In this document: in pieces, positions 26,021-35,884 of the stretch
Numbering within the stretch: position 1 is the stretch's first letter
Layout of the letters: every line of letters starts with the position of its first letter
Assembly: GCA_014727975.1 (NCBI GenBank)
Contig: WJMK01000030.1
Location: forward strand, 1 to 35,884
From: Microcaldota archaeon
GTDB lineage: Archaea; Micrarchaeota; Micrarchaeia; Anstonellales; Bilamarchaeaceae
Reading direction: 5' to 3'
Length of the DNA stretch: 35,884 nucleotides
Program-made: the position numbers and the translations under genes
Notes under the pieces: model-generated
Told to the model about the DNA's origin: nothing
The model's database searches: none
What the model saw: only the letters and a program-made list of their open reading frames with translations

Positions 26021-26043
26021 GGGATTAATTGCGTGTGGGGGTT

Positions 26044-29000
26044 ATGTGCAGGAACAAGGTTTTTGCGGTTTTGCTTTTGATTATCGGGATTTCCAATGCA
26101 ATCTGGATAAATGTTAATTCAGAATATTCACCAGGGGAAACAATAAGTTTCAGCGTGAGCGATGCAGAAGGCACTCTGGTTGTAGACGTGGCAGACTCAG
26201 AAGGGAAAAATGTTTTCCACGAGGTGCGGACAGTAGAGATGCAGGGCGAGGAGCCTTACTATTATTCATACGAAACATTCGAGCTGGAGCTCCCCGCAGG
26301 GGAATACACAATAACTGCAAAAGATGACGTGGGAAACGAGGGAACCGCAGAATTCAGGGTTAGCTCAATCGGGATCATGGCTGTAATCGGGCCTGAGGGG
26401 GAGGGGGCATTCCTGCACAAGGAAGACGGAAGCGCGATTGAGGGAGGTAAGATAGTCCTTACTTACAACAACTCAGGAGAAATTGAAACTGAAGAAATAT
26501 TTTCCGGGGTTGGGGGCGCCTTTGCCTTTGAAACAAGCGGGCTGCAAAGCATCCTGGGAGAATATGACGGGGAGAGCGCAGAGATTGAGGTTTATGGGGG
26601 AGGATATTCCCCTGAGCCATACCTGGACTACTGGTGGACAGGGGAATACTACACAAGCTACGTATTCAGCGACAAAGAGATTTATCAGCCTGGGGAAACT
26701 GTGCATCTCTCCTCGATAATATTCAAGGAGAATGCAACTGCATATGAGAGTGTGCTGGGGAGCTTCGATGTTGAGATAAGGGACCCGGACTACAATGTGG
26801 TCTATTCCAAGCCCATAGGGGCAGTAAACTCTAGGGTAAGCATTGACTTCCCGCTGGGAGAGGAGGCAGCGCTTGGATGGTACTCTGTAAACATAAAGAG
26901 GAACGAAAGCTATGCGGGCTGGTACAATTTTGAGGTGCAGGAGTATAAGAGGCCGGAGATTGATGTGCAGCTTAGCCCGCGGGAAGAAGCATTCACCGTA
27001 AATGAAACTATTTATGTTGATGTTTACACTGAATATTATTTCGGCGGGGCTGCGGATGCAGAAGTAAAGTTTGAGATATTCAGGGGGCCGCATTATGTGC
27101 CTTATTACAGGTATGGGTATTGCTGCCCATGGTGGCAGGAGGAGCTGGTTGCAGAGGGGATTGTCTATAGCCAAAATGGAGAGGGAACAATTGAGTGGAA
27201 CGGAACCAATGCAACTGGGGACTATAGGATAAAGGTATCAGTTACGGATGAAAGCGAGATTGTAAGTGAAGAAGAAGCAACCGTGTCCGTGCTTGAGGAA
27301 GTGAACCTGCAGGTGCTTGTCCCCACAATGGAAGCAAACCAGAGCAGCACAATTACGCTTCTTTCATATAATGAGGATGATGAAGCGCTGGACGTTTCCG
27401 GAGAAATCAGGATATACAAAAGCGGAGACTACTGGCACATCTACACTGAAGAAGGGGAGAAAAATGAAAGCATTGAGCCGGTGTTCGAGCAGAATTTCAG
27501 CACAGTGGAGGGGAAACATAGTTTTGGATTTGTACCCGGGGAAGTGGGGAGCTATTACCTGGTTGCAGAAGCTGCAGGGGCACGGCTGCAGCAGTACTTC
27601 CACGTATCAGAATACTCCTGGTGGAGCTGGAACTACCTGGAAGTGGAGCTTGACAAGACAGAGTATTCTGCCGGGGAAAACATAGGAGCTACGGTTACCT
27701 CCCCTGTAAGCGGGAGGCTCCTTGTTGCATCCATGGGGAGTGTGCCAAGCATTGAGTTCTATTCGGTTGAGGCAGGGGTTAATGAGCTGGAGATGGAAGC
27801 GGCTGAGACCAGCAACCTGCGCTTCTACGTAATTGAAGGCGGGGAAAAATACGGCGGATATGGGAACTACATGGTAAGGGGTGCGGATTGGGTCGAGGTT
27901 GAGATAGAGCATGGCCCGGTTTATGGGCCAAGGGACATCGCAAGGATTGTGATTAACGCGGAAAAAGCAGGCTCCAGGAGCAATGCGGCTGCATCCATCG
28001 CAATAGTGGACCAGGCAATAATCGACCTTTCGGGTGCGGAATGGAAGGATGTGTATAAATATTTCTACGGGCGGCCCCAGGAGAACTATGAAGTGAAGTT
28101 CAGCTGGGACGGACCCGTATTCTGGAGGACAGGGGGCATGGAAGATGGTTTGGTTTATACTGATGCCATGGCTGAGGAAACTGCAATGCCAGCTCCTGGG
28201 GAGGCTGGGGAAAAGGGGAGGGAAGAGATTGAGGTAAGGGAGAAATTTATAGAAACCTCCCTATGGGTTCCCTACATAATCCTGGAAAACGGGAAAAAAG
28301 AGGTGCTCTGGCACGTCCCGGATACGCTTACAACCTGGAACATCACGGTGGTTGCAAATGAGGGGGCTGCAGTAGGCATGGGCAGCAGCTCGGTGCTGGT
28401 TACCAAGGAGGTGATTGGGAGGATGAGTCCTCCTGCAGGGCTTGTTGCGGATGATGCTGCAGCAATCCCGGCCACTGTTTTAAATTATGGGGAGGAAGCT
28501 GCCACCTTCAAGATTACAATGGAGAGCAGCCCGAACATCTGGGTGCTGGGGAGCCCTGTGAGGCACGTGAACCTGGGAAGCGGGGAATCCTACACACTTT
28601 ACCTGCCTGTGAAGGCGATGGAAGCCGGGGAAGGAAACCTCACTCTTTATGTGGAAGGCGGGGAAGGAGATGCAGTAATGCTCCCGATTGAAGTGCAGGC
28701 GCTCGGGGTAAAAGTAACTGAAGTGGACTCGGGGATTGTGAATGGAAATTCAGGAAAGCTGGGGTATGATGCTCCGGAAGGGGCAGATGTTACGCTTTTG
28801 CTGCACTCTTCAATTCTTTCATCTGCATTTGAGAGCCTGGACTATCTTGTAAGCTACCCATATGGATGCATAGAGCAAACCATGAGCGGATTCCTCCCAA
28901 ATATTGTGCTTGTTTATGCGCTGGATGAGCTGGACATTGGGTATGAAGGGAAAGAGAACATAACTGCGCTGATTGATGAGGGGCTTGCAAGGATTTACGA

Positions 29001-30402
29001 GCACCAGAACCCGGATGGGAGCTGGGGCTGGTTCAGGGGGCAGGATGAAAGAATCAGTGCATACGTTATGGATGGGCTGAGAGTTGCAAAGAATGCAGGG
29101 GTTAGCGTGGATGAGGAAGTTTACGGTTCCGGGCTTGATTGGCTCAAGGGGGCAGAGAGCCCCTATGCATTGTTTGTGCTGAACCGTATAGACTCATCGC
29201 TTGTAGCCAGTTACTCAAAAGACTCCTTTGGGGCGCTTGCTGAGTGCGGCGATGGGGAATGCAGCAGGCTTGTTTCAATGCTGGAATGCTCAGGGAACTA
29301 CTGCAGCCTTGAGTATGGGGAAGGGAACAGGTGGTACCATACTGAAACCGAGCTTACATCTTATGCAGTTGAAGCGCTTGTGAAAAACGGGGAGATGGAA
29401 TATGCGCAGAAATGCGTGAACTGGCTCATGCTGCACAAAAAAGGAGGAAGATACTGGACAAGCACAAAAGACACTGCAAGGAGCGTTCTGGCGCTTGTGG
29501 AATACGCAAAGGCCACTGGGGAAATGCGCTCGGATTATGTTGTTTCTGTGCGCTTGGACGGGGAAGAAGTTTATGCAAATAGGATGGGGCATGAGAGCGT
29601 GGAAAGCGAAGAGATTTTCCTTCCTGCAGGAAAGCATGAAATTGATATTAGTAAGGATGGGTTTGGGCCTCTTTATTACACCCTTGCTGAAGTTTACTTT
29701 ACGGATGAAATCCCTGAAGGGGAAATTGCAGTAGAAAGAGAATACGATAAAACCGTTGCAAAGGTAGGGGATGAGATTGAGGTCGCCCTGAAGATAAACG
29801 GAACAGGGGAATACATTGCAGTTGAAGACCCAATCCCAATGGGGACGGAGATTGTCCAGGAAGGAGACAGATACTGGTGGTATTATGGGGGCTACAGGAT
29901 GGAGGCAAGGGAAGACAAGGCAGTCTTTTTCTTTGACAGGCTGGAGGATACGGAGATTACTTATAAGCTGAGGGTCACCCATAAAGGCGACTTCACTGCG
30001 CTGCCCACGCATGCATATGATATGTATTCCCCTGAGGTGGAAGGGTACTCCGGTTTCGAACATTTCACATTCTATGAGAAGGCATATATCGAACCGTACG
30101 TAACAGAATACAACACGACCCTGAGGATATGGTGGGACGGCCCTGGGCCTGCAACTCTGAAAGTGAACATGGATGGAGAAGAGAGTGAGTATGAAGTTGT
30201 TCCAGGAGAGAATGAGATAGTCGTAGGGGGAACCGGCCAGATAGAGTATTCTTTTGAATCCGAAGAAGAGTACTTTGAGGCAGAACTGGGAGAGGAGGAA
30301 GCGGAAGAGCCTGACGCCGGAAATGGGGGGGAAGGATGGATTGCAATGGCTGCGGTTGGCATTGCGTTTGCTGCGGTCCTTATTTACTTATGGAAAAAAT
30401 AA
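26044..30402 (+). CDS. Membrane-anchored alpha-2-macroglobulin-like protein
   Basis: From the ATG at 26044 the protein is 1452 residues. An N-terminal signal (CRNKVFAVLLLIIGISNA) and a C-terminal membrane helix (WIAMAAVGIAFAAVLIYLWKK) suggest an extracellular, anchored protein. It is built from a long chain of macroglobulin beta domains (MG repeats, about 30-620), then the ETSLWVPYIIL region and LPIEVQALGVKV before the thioester domain. The thioester motif is GCIEQ (C942-Q945 in YPYGCIEQTMSGFLPN), followed by the alpha-helical barrel (NPDGSWGWFRGQDERISAYV, EALVKNGEMEYAQK, TSTKDTARSVLALVEY). Family members trap or bind proteases and attacking surfaces. No penicillin-binding protein is adjacent, unlike many bacterial copies. 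Confidence 0.93.
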   Translation: MCRNKVFAVLLLIIGISNAIWINVNSEYSPGETISFSVSDAEGTLVVDVADSEGKNVFHEVRTVEMQGEEPYYYSYETFELELPAGEYTITAKDDVGNEGTAEFRVSSIGIMAVIGPEGEGAFLHKEDGSAIEGGKIVLTYNNSGEIETEEIFSGVGGAFAFETSGLQSILGEYDGESAEIEVYGGGYSPEPYLDYWWTGEYYTSYVFSDKEIYQPGETVHLSSIIFKENATAYESVLGSFDVEIRDPDYNVVYSKPIGAVNSRVSIDFPLGEEAALGWYSVNIKRNESYAGWYNFEVQEYKRPEIDVQLSPREEAFTVNETIYVDVYTEYYFGGAADAEVKFEIFRGPHYVPYYRYGYCCPWWQEELVAEGIVYSQNGEGTIEWNGTNATGDYRIKVSVTDESEIVSEEEATVSVLEEVNLQVLVPTMEANQSSTITLLSYNEDDEALDVSGEIRIYKSGDYWHIYTEEGEKNESIEPVFEQNFSTVEGKHSFGFVPGEVGSYYLVAEAAGARLQQYFHVSEYSWWSWNYLEVELDKTEYSAGENIGATVTSPVSGRLLVASMGSVPSIEFYSVEAGVNELEMEAAETSNLRFYVIEGGEKYGGYGNYMVRGADWVEVEIEHGPVYGPRDIARIVINAEKAGSRSNAAASIAIVDQAIIDLSGAEWKDVYKYFYGRPQENYEVKFSWDGPVFWRTGGMEDGLVYTDAMAEETAMPAPGEAGEKGREEIEVREKFIETSLWVPYIILENGKKEVLWHVPDTLTTWNITVVANEGAAVGMGSSSVLVTKEVIGRMSPPAGLVADDAAAIPATVLNYGEEAATFKITMESSPNIWVLGSPVRHVNLGSGESYTLYLPVKAMEAGEGNLTLYVEGGEGDAVMLPIEVQALGVKVTEVDSGIVNGNSGKLGYDAPEGADVTLLLHSSILSSAFESLDYLVSYPYGCIEQTMSGFLPNIVLVYALDELDIGYEGKENITALIDEGLARIYEHQNPDGSWGWFRGQDERISAYVMDGLRVAKNAGVSVDEEVYGSGLDWLKGAESPYALFVLNRIDSSLVASYSKDSFGALAECGDGECSRLVSMLECSGNYCSLEYGEGNRWYHTETELTSYAVEALVKNGEMEYAQKCVNWLMLHKKGGRYWTSTKDTARSVLALVEYAKATGEMRSDYVVSVRLDGEEVYANRMGHESVESEEIFLPAGKHEIDISKDGFGPLYYTLAEVYFTDEIPEGEIAVEREYDKTVAKVGDEIEVALKINGTGEYIAVEDPIPMGTEIVQEGDRYWWYYGGYRMEAREDKAVFFFDRLEDTEITYKLRVTHKGDFTALPTHAYDMYSPEVEGYSGFEHFTFYEKAYIEPYVTEYNTTLRIWWDGPGPATLKVNMDGEESEYEVVPGENEIVVGGTGQIEYSFESEEEYFEAELGEEEAEEPDAGNGGEGWIAMAAVGIAFAAVLIYLWKK

Positions 30403-32315: not shown

Positions 32316-32418
32316 GGGCCCATAGCTCAGGCTGGTTAGAGCGACGGTCTTATATGGCCACCTCTAATACAATGGTCTAGGACAGCCGTAGGTCAGGGGT
32401 TCAAATCCCCTTGGGCCC
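32316..32418 (+). tRNA. tRNA-Ile (mature anticodon UAU) with a 29-nt BHB intron
   Basis: The acceptor is GGGCCCA (32316-32322) pairing with TGGGCCC (32412-32418). The D arm has GCTC/GAGC. The anticodon stem is ACGGT (32344-32348) with GCCGT (32385-32389). The T arm is AGGGG-TTCAAAT-CCCCT. Removing 32355-32383 leaves a loop CTTATAA, giving anticodon TAT at 32351-32353, which reads AUA isoleucine. The splice sites fit the canonical archaeal BHB at position 37/38. UAU is rare in archaea, where AUA is usually read by a CAU tRNA modified to agmatidine. The gene has no encoded CCA. Confidence 0.93.
32355..32383 (+). other. tRNA intron with canonical bulge-helix-bulge
   Basis: Exon CTTA (32349-32352) pairs with intron TAGG (32378-32381) as the central 4-bp helix. 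Three-nt bulges TAT (32353-32355) and ACA (32382-32384) flank it, each cut after the second base. The inner helix GGCCA (32356-32360) pairs with TGGTC (32373-32377). This is the textbook substrate of the archaeal splicing endonuclease. The 29-nt intron has a 12-nt loop and no protein-coding capacity. Confidence 0.9.
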
Positions 32419-32436
32419 ATTTTCTTATTTTGGTCT

Positions 32437-32913: not shown

Positions 32914-33279
32914 CTAGTCATCGACCTCCTCTATTGCACTTTTCAGCTTGCAGAGCATTGAGCGGATGCGCACCAATGCGTTCATGAAATTAAGGTGTTC
33001 TCGCTGGGGGATTATCTTGAGCGAGTGGCACAAATCGAGCCAGAACTCCGACTCGTTTGCCTCGCCTATACAGATTACCAGCTTCTGCCTCTGGGCTTTT
33101 CTGGAATCGTAAGCACCCATCTCTGCCAGATTAGCGCAGATGGAAGACGCAGAAGCTAAGAGTTGCTCTTTTGCCCCCCTGCTCATCTGCTTGTCTTCCA
33201 TGAACTCGAAAATGTCCTTTGAAAGGCGGAAAGCCTCTTCATACACTTTCAGGTTCTTGAAATTCTGCACACTTACCAC
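32914..33279 (-). CDS. avd: Four-helix-bundle protein, Avd-like
   Basis: The 121-residue protein belongs to the S23/four-helix-bundle family. The signature is FKNLKVYEEAFRLSKDIFEF, then SRGAKEQLLASASSICANLA, then IGEANESEFWLDLCHS. DGR accessory protein Avd is a member of this family; it forms a pentameric barrel that binds the reverse transcriptase and template RNA. The gene is on the same strand as the RT, 395 bp downstream of it. A GTG at 33279 or 33270 is the likely start (GGTGG nearby). The family also has many members with no DGR, so the Avd role is inferred from context. Confidence 0.7.
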   Translation of the reverse strand: MVSVQNFKNLKVYEEAFRLSKDIFEFMEDKQMSRGAKEQLLASASSICANLAEMGAYDSRKAQRQKLVICIGEANESEFWLDLCHSLKIIPQREHLNFMNALVRIRSMLCKLKSAIEEVDD

Positions 33280-33673: not shown

Positions 33674-34755
33674 CTACCCCTTAAAATCAAAAGCTTCAGC
33701 AAAAGCAGATGCAACCTTCATCCGCAGATTATAAGTATTGGCGAATTCCGCGTACGCAAGCCAGCCATCCAGGCTCTGGGAGATTTTTTCTTTTTCTACG
33801 TTTCCGGCTTGGTGCTTTTGCTTGAACTTTTCCAGGCGCTTCCACACTCTTTTTGCGTTGCTTTTCTTTAGGAGCCTGTAATGATAAAAAACACGGAAAC
33901 CAAGCAGGGTTATTCCATTCCTAACGGGAACTATCTTGGATTTGTCAGGGTGAAGCTCAACTTCCAGGTTGCCTTTCAAAAATCTGTCTATTTCGCGTTG
34001 CCATTTTTCAAGAACAGTTTTATCCGTATGCAGAATTACAAAATCATCAACGTAACGCAGATAGTATTCTGCTTTTAGAGTGTGTTTTACAAAATAATCA
34101 AGCTCGTTCAAATATACGTTCGCAAAGAACTGGGAGGTCAGGTTGCCCAAGGGCATTCCCTTACCGGGGGATTTGGTTTTGTGATTGCTGAGGATTTGCT
34201 TTATCAACCAGATTACTCTGGGATCGCTTATTTTTCTCCTGATTATTTCCAAGAGGATCGCATGGTCGATGTTATCAAAGTACTGTTTGATGTCTGCCTT
34301 CAGCACATAACATCTGGCGCTGCGCAAAACGCAATTTCCCCCCCCATTCCGAATTTTGTGCCATTTGAAGAAACCTTGCGCATGAATTTCTCAAATCTTC
34401 TTATGGCGGAATGGGTGCCTTTCCCTTTCTGGTTTGCAAAGGAATCATGGATGAAGCGCTTCTCGAAAATCGGACCTATTATGTTGCATAAAGCGTGATG
34501 GACAATGCGGTCTCGGAAGTGGGAGGCTGAAATCCTTCTGGTTTTTGGGTCCCGCACAGTGAAGGTTGTTAGCGGGCTGGGAGAATAGGTAAATGTTTCG
34601 AGTTCGTGTTTCAATTGATTTAAGTTTTCTTTCAAGTTAGATTCGAAATCTATTACATAATGCTTCGTGGTTTTCTTCTTCCTTGCTTTCCTGAAGGCGA
34701 GTTCCAGATTTTCATATGAGCAGAGTTGCGGGTAAAGGTTTCTGTACGTTTTCAT
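33674..34755 (-). CDS. DGR-type reverse transcriptase, split by a frameshift
   Basis: The protein would be 360 residues if the reading frames are joined at a run of eight G (minus strand; 34338-34345). The first frame from the ATG at 34755 runs MKTYRNLYPQLCSYENLELA to FMRKVSSNGTKFG; the second carries KADIKQYFDNIDH. One extra G restores the frame through GMGGGNCVLRSARCYVLKAD. Motifs: PLGNLTSQFFANVYLN (about 202-217), characteristic of DGR RTs, and catalytic YVDD (about 235-238). There is no maturase or endonuclease domain. It copies the template RNA with adenine-directed errors. The break could be programmed frameshifting, a recent mutation, or a sequencing error in the homopolymer. Confidence 0.9.
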
Positions 34756-34793: not shown

Positions 34794-34888
34794 TCATTTC
34801 GATACGGTTGGAAGGCCTGTTGTTGAGGTTGGCGTTGCGCCTGTTGTTGTCGTTGTAGTTGTTGTTGTAGTCGCGGGCAACAGGGCCC
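34794..34888 (-). repeat. DGR template repeat (TR)
   Basis: This 95-nt block lies between the target gene and the RT start, 39 nt from the RT ATG. In the target's reading frame it is AAC-rich: GAC TAC AAC AAC AAC TAC, then AAC GAC AAC AAC, and so on. It matches the variable repeat at 35308-35399 with 22 substitutions, all at template adenines, and one 3-nt gap. Template G, C and T positions are unchanged. Confidence 0.94.
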
Positions 34889-34913
34889 CAAGAGTAACCC
34901 GCCTGCTTAAAAC

Positions 34914-34949
34914 GGCACGGGATGCCCGGAAACCGGAGAATCCTGTGCC
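34914..34949. repeat. Stem-loop 5' of the template repeat
   Basis: GGCACGGGAT (34914-34923) pairs with ATCCTGTGCC (34940-34949) across a 16-nt loop that contains CCGGAAACCGG. It lies 26 nt upstream of the TR on the minus strand and could be part of the DGR template RNA structure. The 34890-35092 gap otherwise holds no gene. Confidence 0.45.
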
Positions 34950-35092
34950 GGCACCGCGGCTTTACTGTTTCGGCTGGTATAGCTTACTAAGTATCGCCGC
35001 TGAATTTCATGTCTGGCTTGCTCAAACAAGCTTCCAGCTCTGCAGGCGGATGTGTGGCCCAGGCTTGCACCTAGGAATAGAAAAAGAAAAGA

Positions 35093-35884
35093 TTATTCTT
35101 TTATTCTTAGTGATTCCACGAGCCTTGCCAGGGGTTCCAGCTTTTCTTCCCGGACAGTCTGCACAAGCTCCTCAAGGCTTGATTTTGCATTGCCTACCAA
35201 TGCCCTGAGCTCTTCTGCTGTGACTCCTTTTACAAGGGCTCCGCTTTCATCTGGTGTGTTTTCAACCTGCGCAATTTCTGGCGCTCCCCCTTCGGGGGAC
35301 TCAACTACCACCCCGAAACGGCCGGAAGGCCTGCTGTAGAGGACGGCGTCGCGCCCGACGTCGCCGTAGCCGTTGACGTAGCCGCGGGCAACAGGGCCCA
35401 CCCTGCTGTCAACTCTCCAAAGGTACCTTGCCTTCTCATCTGAAGAGCTTACTTCTTTTCCAGTAGGAATGTCAAACTGCTCATCACCAAAGTGCCAGCC
35501 GTCTTCTTTTGGAAAGTGCGTAAGACCAACAACTTCTGAAGCTTCAACTACAAGGTTCTTCCCATCCGGAACCAAGGTGAAATTAGGGTGTTCCACTACA
35601 AGAATCATGTTTTTCTCATTTCTGTATTGCTCTGGAACCGGGAATACGTATTTCTGTCCGTCTTCCGGATCGGTGTATTCGACGAATTTGCCGAGTTTCT
35701 TTCCGGGCTCTGTATATCCGGTCATTGTGCCGGTCCAGCAAGTAAATGCTTCCCTCATGCTTTTCCACTCGTCTGTTTCAACAAGGGCTTTGGTCATTCT
35801 TTTGTTTGGGGCGAGAACGAGGTTTCTTTCATCTGCAAGCTCAAGTGCTTTCCTGTAAGAAACTCCATCTGCTTTTTTGACTAG
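35093..35884 (-). CDS. DGR variable (target) protein, N-terminus outside the window
   Basis: The frame is open for 263 residues back to the right edge (first visible residues LVKKADGVSYRKALELADER), so the true start lies outside; the internal ATG at 35797 is not the start. The variable region covers visible residues about 162-193, beginning VGPVARGYVNGYGDVGRDAV, following YLWRVDSR. A further 70 residues follow, including a likely helical or coiled C-terminus (AEELRALVGNAKSSLEELVQ, TVREEKLEPLARLVESLRIK). DGR target proteins usually display the variable residues on a C-type-lectin-like fold; that fold is inferred. The receptor or ligand is unknown. Confidence 0.88.
   Translation of the reverse strand, partial: LVKKADGVSYRKALELADERNLVLAPNKRMTKALVETDEWKSMREAFTCWTGTMTGYTEPGKKLGKFVEYTDPEDGQKYVFPVPEQYRNEKNMILVVEHPNFTLVPDGKNLVVEASEVVGLTHFPKEDGWHFGDEQFDIPTGKEVSSSDEKARYLWRVDSRVGPVARGYVNGYGDVGRDAVLYSRPSGRFGVVVESPEGGAPEIAQVENTPDESGALVKGVTAEELRALVGNAKSSLEELVQTVREEKLEPLARLVESLRIKE
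35285..35299. repeat. Hairpin just downstream of the variable repeat
   Basis: TCCCCC-TTC-GGGGGA is a perfect 6-bp stem with a 3-nt loop, 8 nt past the 3' end of the VR (minus sense), inside the target gene. In the Bordetella phage DGR a hairpin or cruciform at this place promotes retrohoming, so this is a likely functional counterpart. Confidence 0.6.
35308..35399 (-). repeat. DGR variable repeat (VR)
   Basis: This 92-nt block, inside the target gene, is the mutated copy of the TR. Examples (TR to VR): GAC to GGC, AAC to GTC, AAC to GGC, AAC to TAC, AAC to AGC, ATC to TTC, GAA to GGG. The gap removes one AAC codon. The 3' end (minus sense) is GC-rich and acts as the likely initiation-of-homing site; the TR counterpart differs only at adenines. 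Confidence 0.94.

Follow-up and report, generated by a model that had tools for sequence, protein, structure and literature searches.

The 35,884-nt contig analysed here, which we refer to as the window, comes from an archaeon of the Micrarchaeota with a small genome and carries a chromosomal diversity-generating retroelement (DGR) whose reverse transcriptase (RT) gene is very likely phase-variable. That is, the gene would be a contingency gene, switched by slippage of a short G tract; we place the probability of this reading, which is drawn from sequence comparison, at about 0.85. The features of the locus are listed in Table 1.

The evidence supports the assignment of the window element as a genuine DGR, because the differences between its template repeat (TR) and variable repeat (VR) are confined to template adenines, the RT next to it has the RT of the BPP-1 DGR as closest relative among solved structures, the order of TR and RT is conserved, and a hairpin follows the VR. 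On the minus strand, the order is target gene with VR, hairpin, TR and RT. In our realignment of TR and VR on that strand, a single 3-nt gap, i.e., one codon, is needed, and it has several equivalent placements. The realignment bears out the first-pass annotation, which had counted 22 differences, all at template adenines: 22 of 22 mismatches fall on adenines, and no substitution of another base is found outside the gap. The changes had been described as A to G, T or C; G (17) and T (5) are indeed found, but C is not (0). As also stated there, every C, G and T of the TR is kept in the VR, outside the gap. The TR contains 33 adenines, and the probability that all 22 mismatches would fall on them by chance is about 2e-13. 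Codon positions 1 and 2 hold 21 of the 22 mismatches. In the source genome (1.07 Mb, 88% complete, 55 contigs), we find a single TR, a single VR and a single match to the RT domain.

Adenine-only VRs and an identical TR-RT order are found at 25 loci, including that in the window. A stem of at least 6 bp follows the VR in 15 of 25 related loci, versus 3% in shuffled sequences; the loop is mostly GAA, and the stem sequences differ. The DGR signature recognised at first reading thus holds, on the adenine-only changes, the BPP-1-like RT, the 25 like loci and the hairpin. The same annotation had deduced that the element has been active since the VR diverged. Past activity at the window locus is supported; present activity cannot be claimed, because the RT is out of frame as assembled.

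The 5' end of the target gene is lost at the end of the contig, of which the window is the whole. A helix is predicted after the VR in the target protein. The hairpin with its GAA loop doubles as the PEGG codons of this protein, with stems that vary by species. Relatives of the target protein are present in 30 of the 59 genomes searched. A C-type lectin fold is usual, not universal, in DGR targets; for this protein, sequence searches gave no Pfam or PDB match, and a structure search gave no significant hit.

Table 1. Features of the DGR locus in the window, in order along the minus strand.
Feature	Position	Strand	Remarks
Target (variable) protein gene	35093-35884	-	263 aa; VR internal
VR, inside target gene	35308-35399	-	92 nt; 22 mismatches to TR, all at TR adenines
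DNA hairpin TCCCCC-GAA-GGGGGA	35285-35299	-	directly 3' of VR; 6-bp stem, loop GAA
TR, AAC-rich	34794-34888	-	95 nt; just upstream of RT start; same position in related loci
RT N-terminal part (before motif A)	34300-34755, within ORF 34797-34300	-	runs out of frame after the tract
G8 tract (C8 on plus strand), proposed slippage switch	34338-34345	-	out of frame as assembled
RT C-terminal part: motif A, PLGNLTSQ, YVDD, thumb	33674-34345, ORF 34327-33674	-	other frame
Four-helix-bundle protein (PF05635/TIGR02436)	32914-33279	-	0.4 kb after RT, same strand

An RT with YVDD and PLGNLTSQ motifs had been reported for the window. Both motifs, of the GNxxSQ and YxDD types of the DGR clade, are present, but not in one open reading frame with the rest of the enzyme: one ORF corresponds to the first part of RT profiles and another to the second, and the frame changes at the G8 tract. 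All catalytic motifs come after this tract, and the predicted product of the gene as assembled is a fragment of about 150 aa. The best solved relative of the RT profile is the RT of the BPP-1 DGR (8ub7, E 1.5e-63). A dead RT had been named as an observation that would speak against an active element. What we find goes halfway: the RT is broken, but at a tract that could slip, and in a genome of the same genus (G004) it is in frame and can be read as one protein. Because its own genome has ten G8 tracts, the RT tract among them, the case for a switch rests on comparison with relatives, and not on this genome alone.

The PF05635/TIGR02436 protein encoded after the RT is a member of a broad family similar to Avd, an accessory protein of DGRs. 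Avd is present in many DGRs, not all. We considered Avd as a fixed partner of these RTs and found no support: the four-helix protein was not found near the RT in the relatives, and a model built from the Avd of a relative matched one of 39 Micrarchaeota sequences, the PF05635 protein of the window not being matched.

For the comparison, the intact RT of G004 was used as query in the family, order and class, with a match in 37 of 301 genomes; 34 Micrarchaeota RT loci with both halves of the RT were compared, nearly all sequences being metagenome assemblies. The tract of the window lies in a linker, namely RT residues about 128 to 150 (G004 numbering). This linker contains a simple repeat in 25 of the 34 loci, versus 0.17 loci in shuffles: poly-G of 8-11 in 18, C8 or C9 in two, and AG5 to AG12 in five. 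By count there are 26 tracts in 2,049 nt of linker, none in 32,877 nt of other RT sequence and two in 187,250 nt of flanking DNA. Those two, G10 and G9, both belong to one locus (G078, L106), downstream of its RT. Fifteen genomes with a poly-G tract of at least 9 in the RT contain 26 such tracts altogether, 16 of them in the RT; in eight (G012, G127, G153, G192, G196, G221, G224 and G229), tracts of at least 9 G occur solely in the RT.

The presence of a tract goes along with a broken frame. Three tract loci (G004, G056 and G076a) are in frame and 22 are out of frame, versus nine of nine in frame among the tract-free loci (Fisher p 4e-6). In 23 of 25 tract loci, the reading frames on either side stay open as far as the tract, so that the tract alone explains the break. 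Without the decayed G157 and G161, phases 0, 1 and 2 are represented by 3, 11 and 9 loci, and the out-of-frame loci require shifts in opposite directions (11 of one class, 9 of the other). At 3 of 23, the in-frame alleles fall short of one third (p 0.045), which neutral slippage does not predict; this shortage may mean that the ON state is costly or transient.

The sequence CGAACG, or a close variant, often follows the poly-G tracts (G008, G012, G422, G415, G504, G594 and others), and this type of context spans both phylum-level groups and both RT sites described below. We also considered GGGGGGGGCRAACG as a general signature of such switches and rejected it: it is found in just three of the 301 Micrarchaeota genomes, located in the RT in two of those three, and its occurrences in viral contigs are dispersed, with no RT to be recognised, and hence it is no general switch signature.

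The length of the repeat differs between close relatives. In the window genome (G000) it is G8, i.e., OFF, and in G004 it is G10, i.e., ON. G157 and G161 have about 700 nt of RT in common and differ there by G8/G10, one substitution and one indel; their flanks diverge far more than this common stretch, and both copies are decayed. G076 has two DGRs, one with AG10 in frame (ON, G076a) and the other with AG9 out of frame (OFF, G076b). A scaffold of G012 (UBA10214) has two copies of the tract and its context joined across NN, one with G9 and the other with G11, as if two alleles had failed to merge. In G020, one contig ends inside G8 and another begins just after it. A coding simple repeat thus sets the frame, and its length differs between close relatives (G000/G004, G157/G161, G076a/G076b and the G012 scaffold), as is the case for phase-variable genes.

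Apart from the tract, the RT halves are nearly always intact and under strong purifying selection. Between G000 (OFF) and G004 (ON), dN/dS is 0.02 in the N-terminal half and 0.08 in the C-terminal half; for the OFF-OFF pair G028 and G034, the C-terminal half gives a value of 0.08, and dS is saturated in the N-terminal half. In the TR/VR cores of the 25 loci, 368 of 597 template adenines differ and no other base does, OFF and ON loci alike, although the core is defined as the longest stretch without a non-A mismatch, so that this zero is partly by construction; the search tolerated two non-A mismatches per 50 nt, and these were met at the edges only. Because VRs with adenine-only changes are found in OFF loci, homing has been recent in loci that now read OFF.

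In the mechanism we propose, slipped-strand mispairing at replication would add or remove repeat units and so shift the reading frame of the RT. A subpopulation would then be ON, with a full-length RT, and the remainder OFF, with an inactive N-terminal fragment of about 150 aa. In ON cells, the TR would be copied with adenine errors into the VR, and the target protein would be diversified; a later slip would return the lineage to OFF, with the VR frozen. Recurrence in separate lineages, the differing repeat units and the two tract lengths in one scaffold lend support to this mechanism. Slipped-strand mispairing appears to be the simplest account of the data, as a heritable and reversible switch of the RT and hence of mutagenic retrohoming. 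What we infer in this mechanism is the rate of slippage, that it is reversible within a population, that OFF cells lack RT activity and that switching is beneficial.

A different explanation is that the tract is a recoding site, i.e., that programmed ribosomal frameshifting or transcriptional slippage yields full-length RT constantly. Purifying selection on both halves, the fixed site of the tracts with a recurrent context downstream, and the surplus of out-of-frame alleles would all fit. However, opposite shifts would be needed in 11 versus 9 loci and none in three, poly-G, poly-C and AG repeats have no common slippery heptamer, and nine tract-free relatives are simply in frame. In addition, slippage of RNA polymerase is not expected on AG repeats. 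Because the required shift and the repeat unit both differ among loci, we regard recoding as unlikely, though transcriptional slippage could yield some RT from OFF alleles. Nor do we find much to recommend the notion that the broken frames arise from homopolymer errors in sequencing or assembly, which is highly improbable: homopolymers invite errors and the assemblies are drafts, but the tracts recur in assemblies from independent projects (Zod, E14, UBA10214, FK5 and LacPavin), AG repeats are among them, and tract-free RTs are in frame at the linker. Such errors could alter the length of a tract, but not create tracts at one site.

That the OFF alleles are dead, the DGRs having decayed after their VRs were diversified, is very unlikely. 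It would agree with the 22 of 25 tract loci out of frame and with the additional stops in G157, G161 and G060, but the halves are otherwise free of stops with low dN/dS, the breaks are confined to the tract, and the VRs have no internal non-A changes; moreover, decay would not put repeats at one loop. We give hardly any credence to an RT that functions as two separately translated chains. The two ORFs do overlap and both are conserved, yet the close relatives G004 and G022 have single-chain alleles, and no conserved start codon of the C-terminal part was noticed, in what was not a systematic search. A switch by slippage of the tract is the reading we retain.

The survey of RTs outside the Micrarchaeota drew on 378 genomes, sampled evenly from another DPANN class around a Woesearchaeota genome. 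It revealed a second group of RTs, with the split near residue 195. Among 20 split RTs fetched, the tract is at residues 191-199 in 15 and at the first site in one (G379). At this second site, 18 of 18 loci, including the in-frame L170, L183 and L202, have frames on either side that stay open as far as the tract, and phases 0, 1 and 2 are found in 3, 5 and 10 of these 18. AG tracts at residues 317-321 in L150 and L187 are further candidates. In L132, L134, L163 and L178, at least 9 G are found about 15 nt before the RT, at the junction with an upstream Avd-like ORF; in L178, this ORF and the RT are in one frame, and the tract may act as the ON/OFF switch of an Avd-RT fusion. About 22 changes between presence and absence of a tract are counted on the RT tree, versus a mean of 39 in shuffles, with the second group sampled non-randomly. 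In viral DGR RTs, 60 of 60 are in frame, and no such tract was found in the linker. The 73 best-scoring RT loci from outside the Micrarchaeota are in frame at the linker as well, in a ranking by score that favours intact genes. We consider it likely that hypermutation in DPANN archaea is two-tiered, with a heritable, random ON/OFF repeat within the DGR RT. This arrangement would have had repeated origins, in two or more phylum-level groups and at two loops of the RT; a third loop and the Avd-RT junction provide further candidates.

An AlphaFold model of the G004 RT has a mean pLDDT of 77, with values under 50 at residues 131-146, which are located between a helix and a strand. The first tract site is therefore predicted to be a disordered loop, before the catalytic motifs. 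Regions 191-199 and 317-322 also lie between structural elements in this model. The RT of BPP-1 has no residues at the first two tract sites. Because the repeats encode Gly, Pro or Arg-Glu in any frame, in-frame tracts of varying length would be tolerable.

The BPP-1 DGR (bRT, TR, VR in mtd, Avd and hairpin) is like the element in the window in its RT family, its adenine-specific changes from TR to VR, the position of TR beside the RT and the hairpin after the VR, which is required in BPP-1 (PMC3240598). It differs in that its RT has no tract, and no residues at the linker and the site-2 loop; in that it has Avd, whereas the Avd model recognises none here; and in the loop of the hairpin, GRNA as opposed to GAA (PMC3240598). 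The DGRs of nanoarchaea and ANMV-1 (Paul 2015, PMC4372165) are likewise DGRs of DPANN archaea; no frameshift, split or homopolymer is mentioned in that study, nor a frameshift or homopolymer in Roux 2021. Inactivated DGR RTs in DiGReF (PMC3521204) are similar in that a frameshifted RT stands beside an intact TR and VR; they were called inactivation or sequencing error, with no recurrent tract described. Phase-variable genes of bacteria, such as the poly-G genes of Campylobacter, share the coding G, C or AG tracts, the occurrence of both off-frames and the logic of bet-hedging. However, those genes concern the surface or restriction-modification, whereas here the gene is archaeal and encodes the mutator enzyme of a hypermutation system.

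In a literature search on DGRs combined with phase variation, frameshift, homopolymer, slipped-strand, archaea and Micrarchaeota, no earlier report was found (Paul 2017 lay outside its scope). A 2025 review left the distribution of phase variation in archaea to future work (PMC11868660), and a 2026 study called the control of DGR activity 'an exciting frontier' (PMC12875486). If the reading proposed here is correct, a slippage switch would allow a binding protein to be diversified in bursts and a good variant then to be kept, with no regulator needed, and the locus would be a case of phase variation by simple repeats in archaea. We know of no earlier case in which the target of phase variation is the enzyme that does the mutating in a system of targeted diversification. 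Where surveys accept only RTs that are intact, such loci will be missed or taken for dead. Short reads can show both the length of the tract and the diversity of the VR.

Three other features were observed. One genome, G018, has 47 matches to the target-protein family, and its sole RT match looks like that of a group II intron; it thus holds a large reserve of relatives of the variable protein, with no DGR RT recognised. At about 32317-32419 the window has a tRNA-like sequence, apparently interrupted by an intron, while ARAGORN reports no tRNA in the window. At 26029-30402 the window encodes, in an archaeal genome, a 1457-aa alpha-2-macroglobulin-like protein with MG2, A2M and TED domains.
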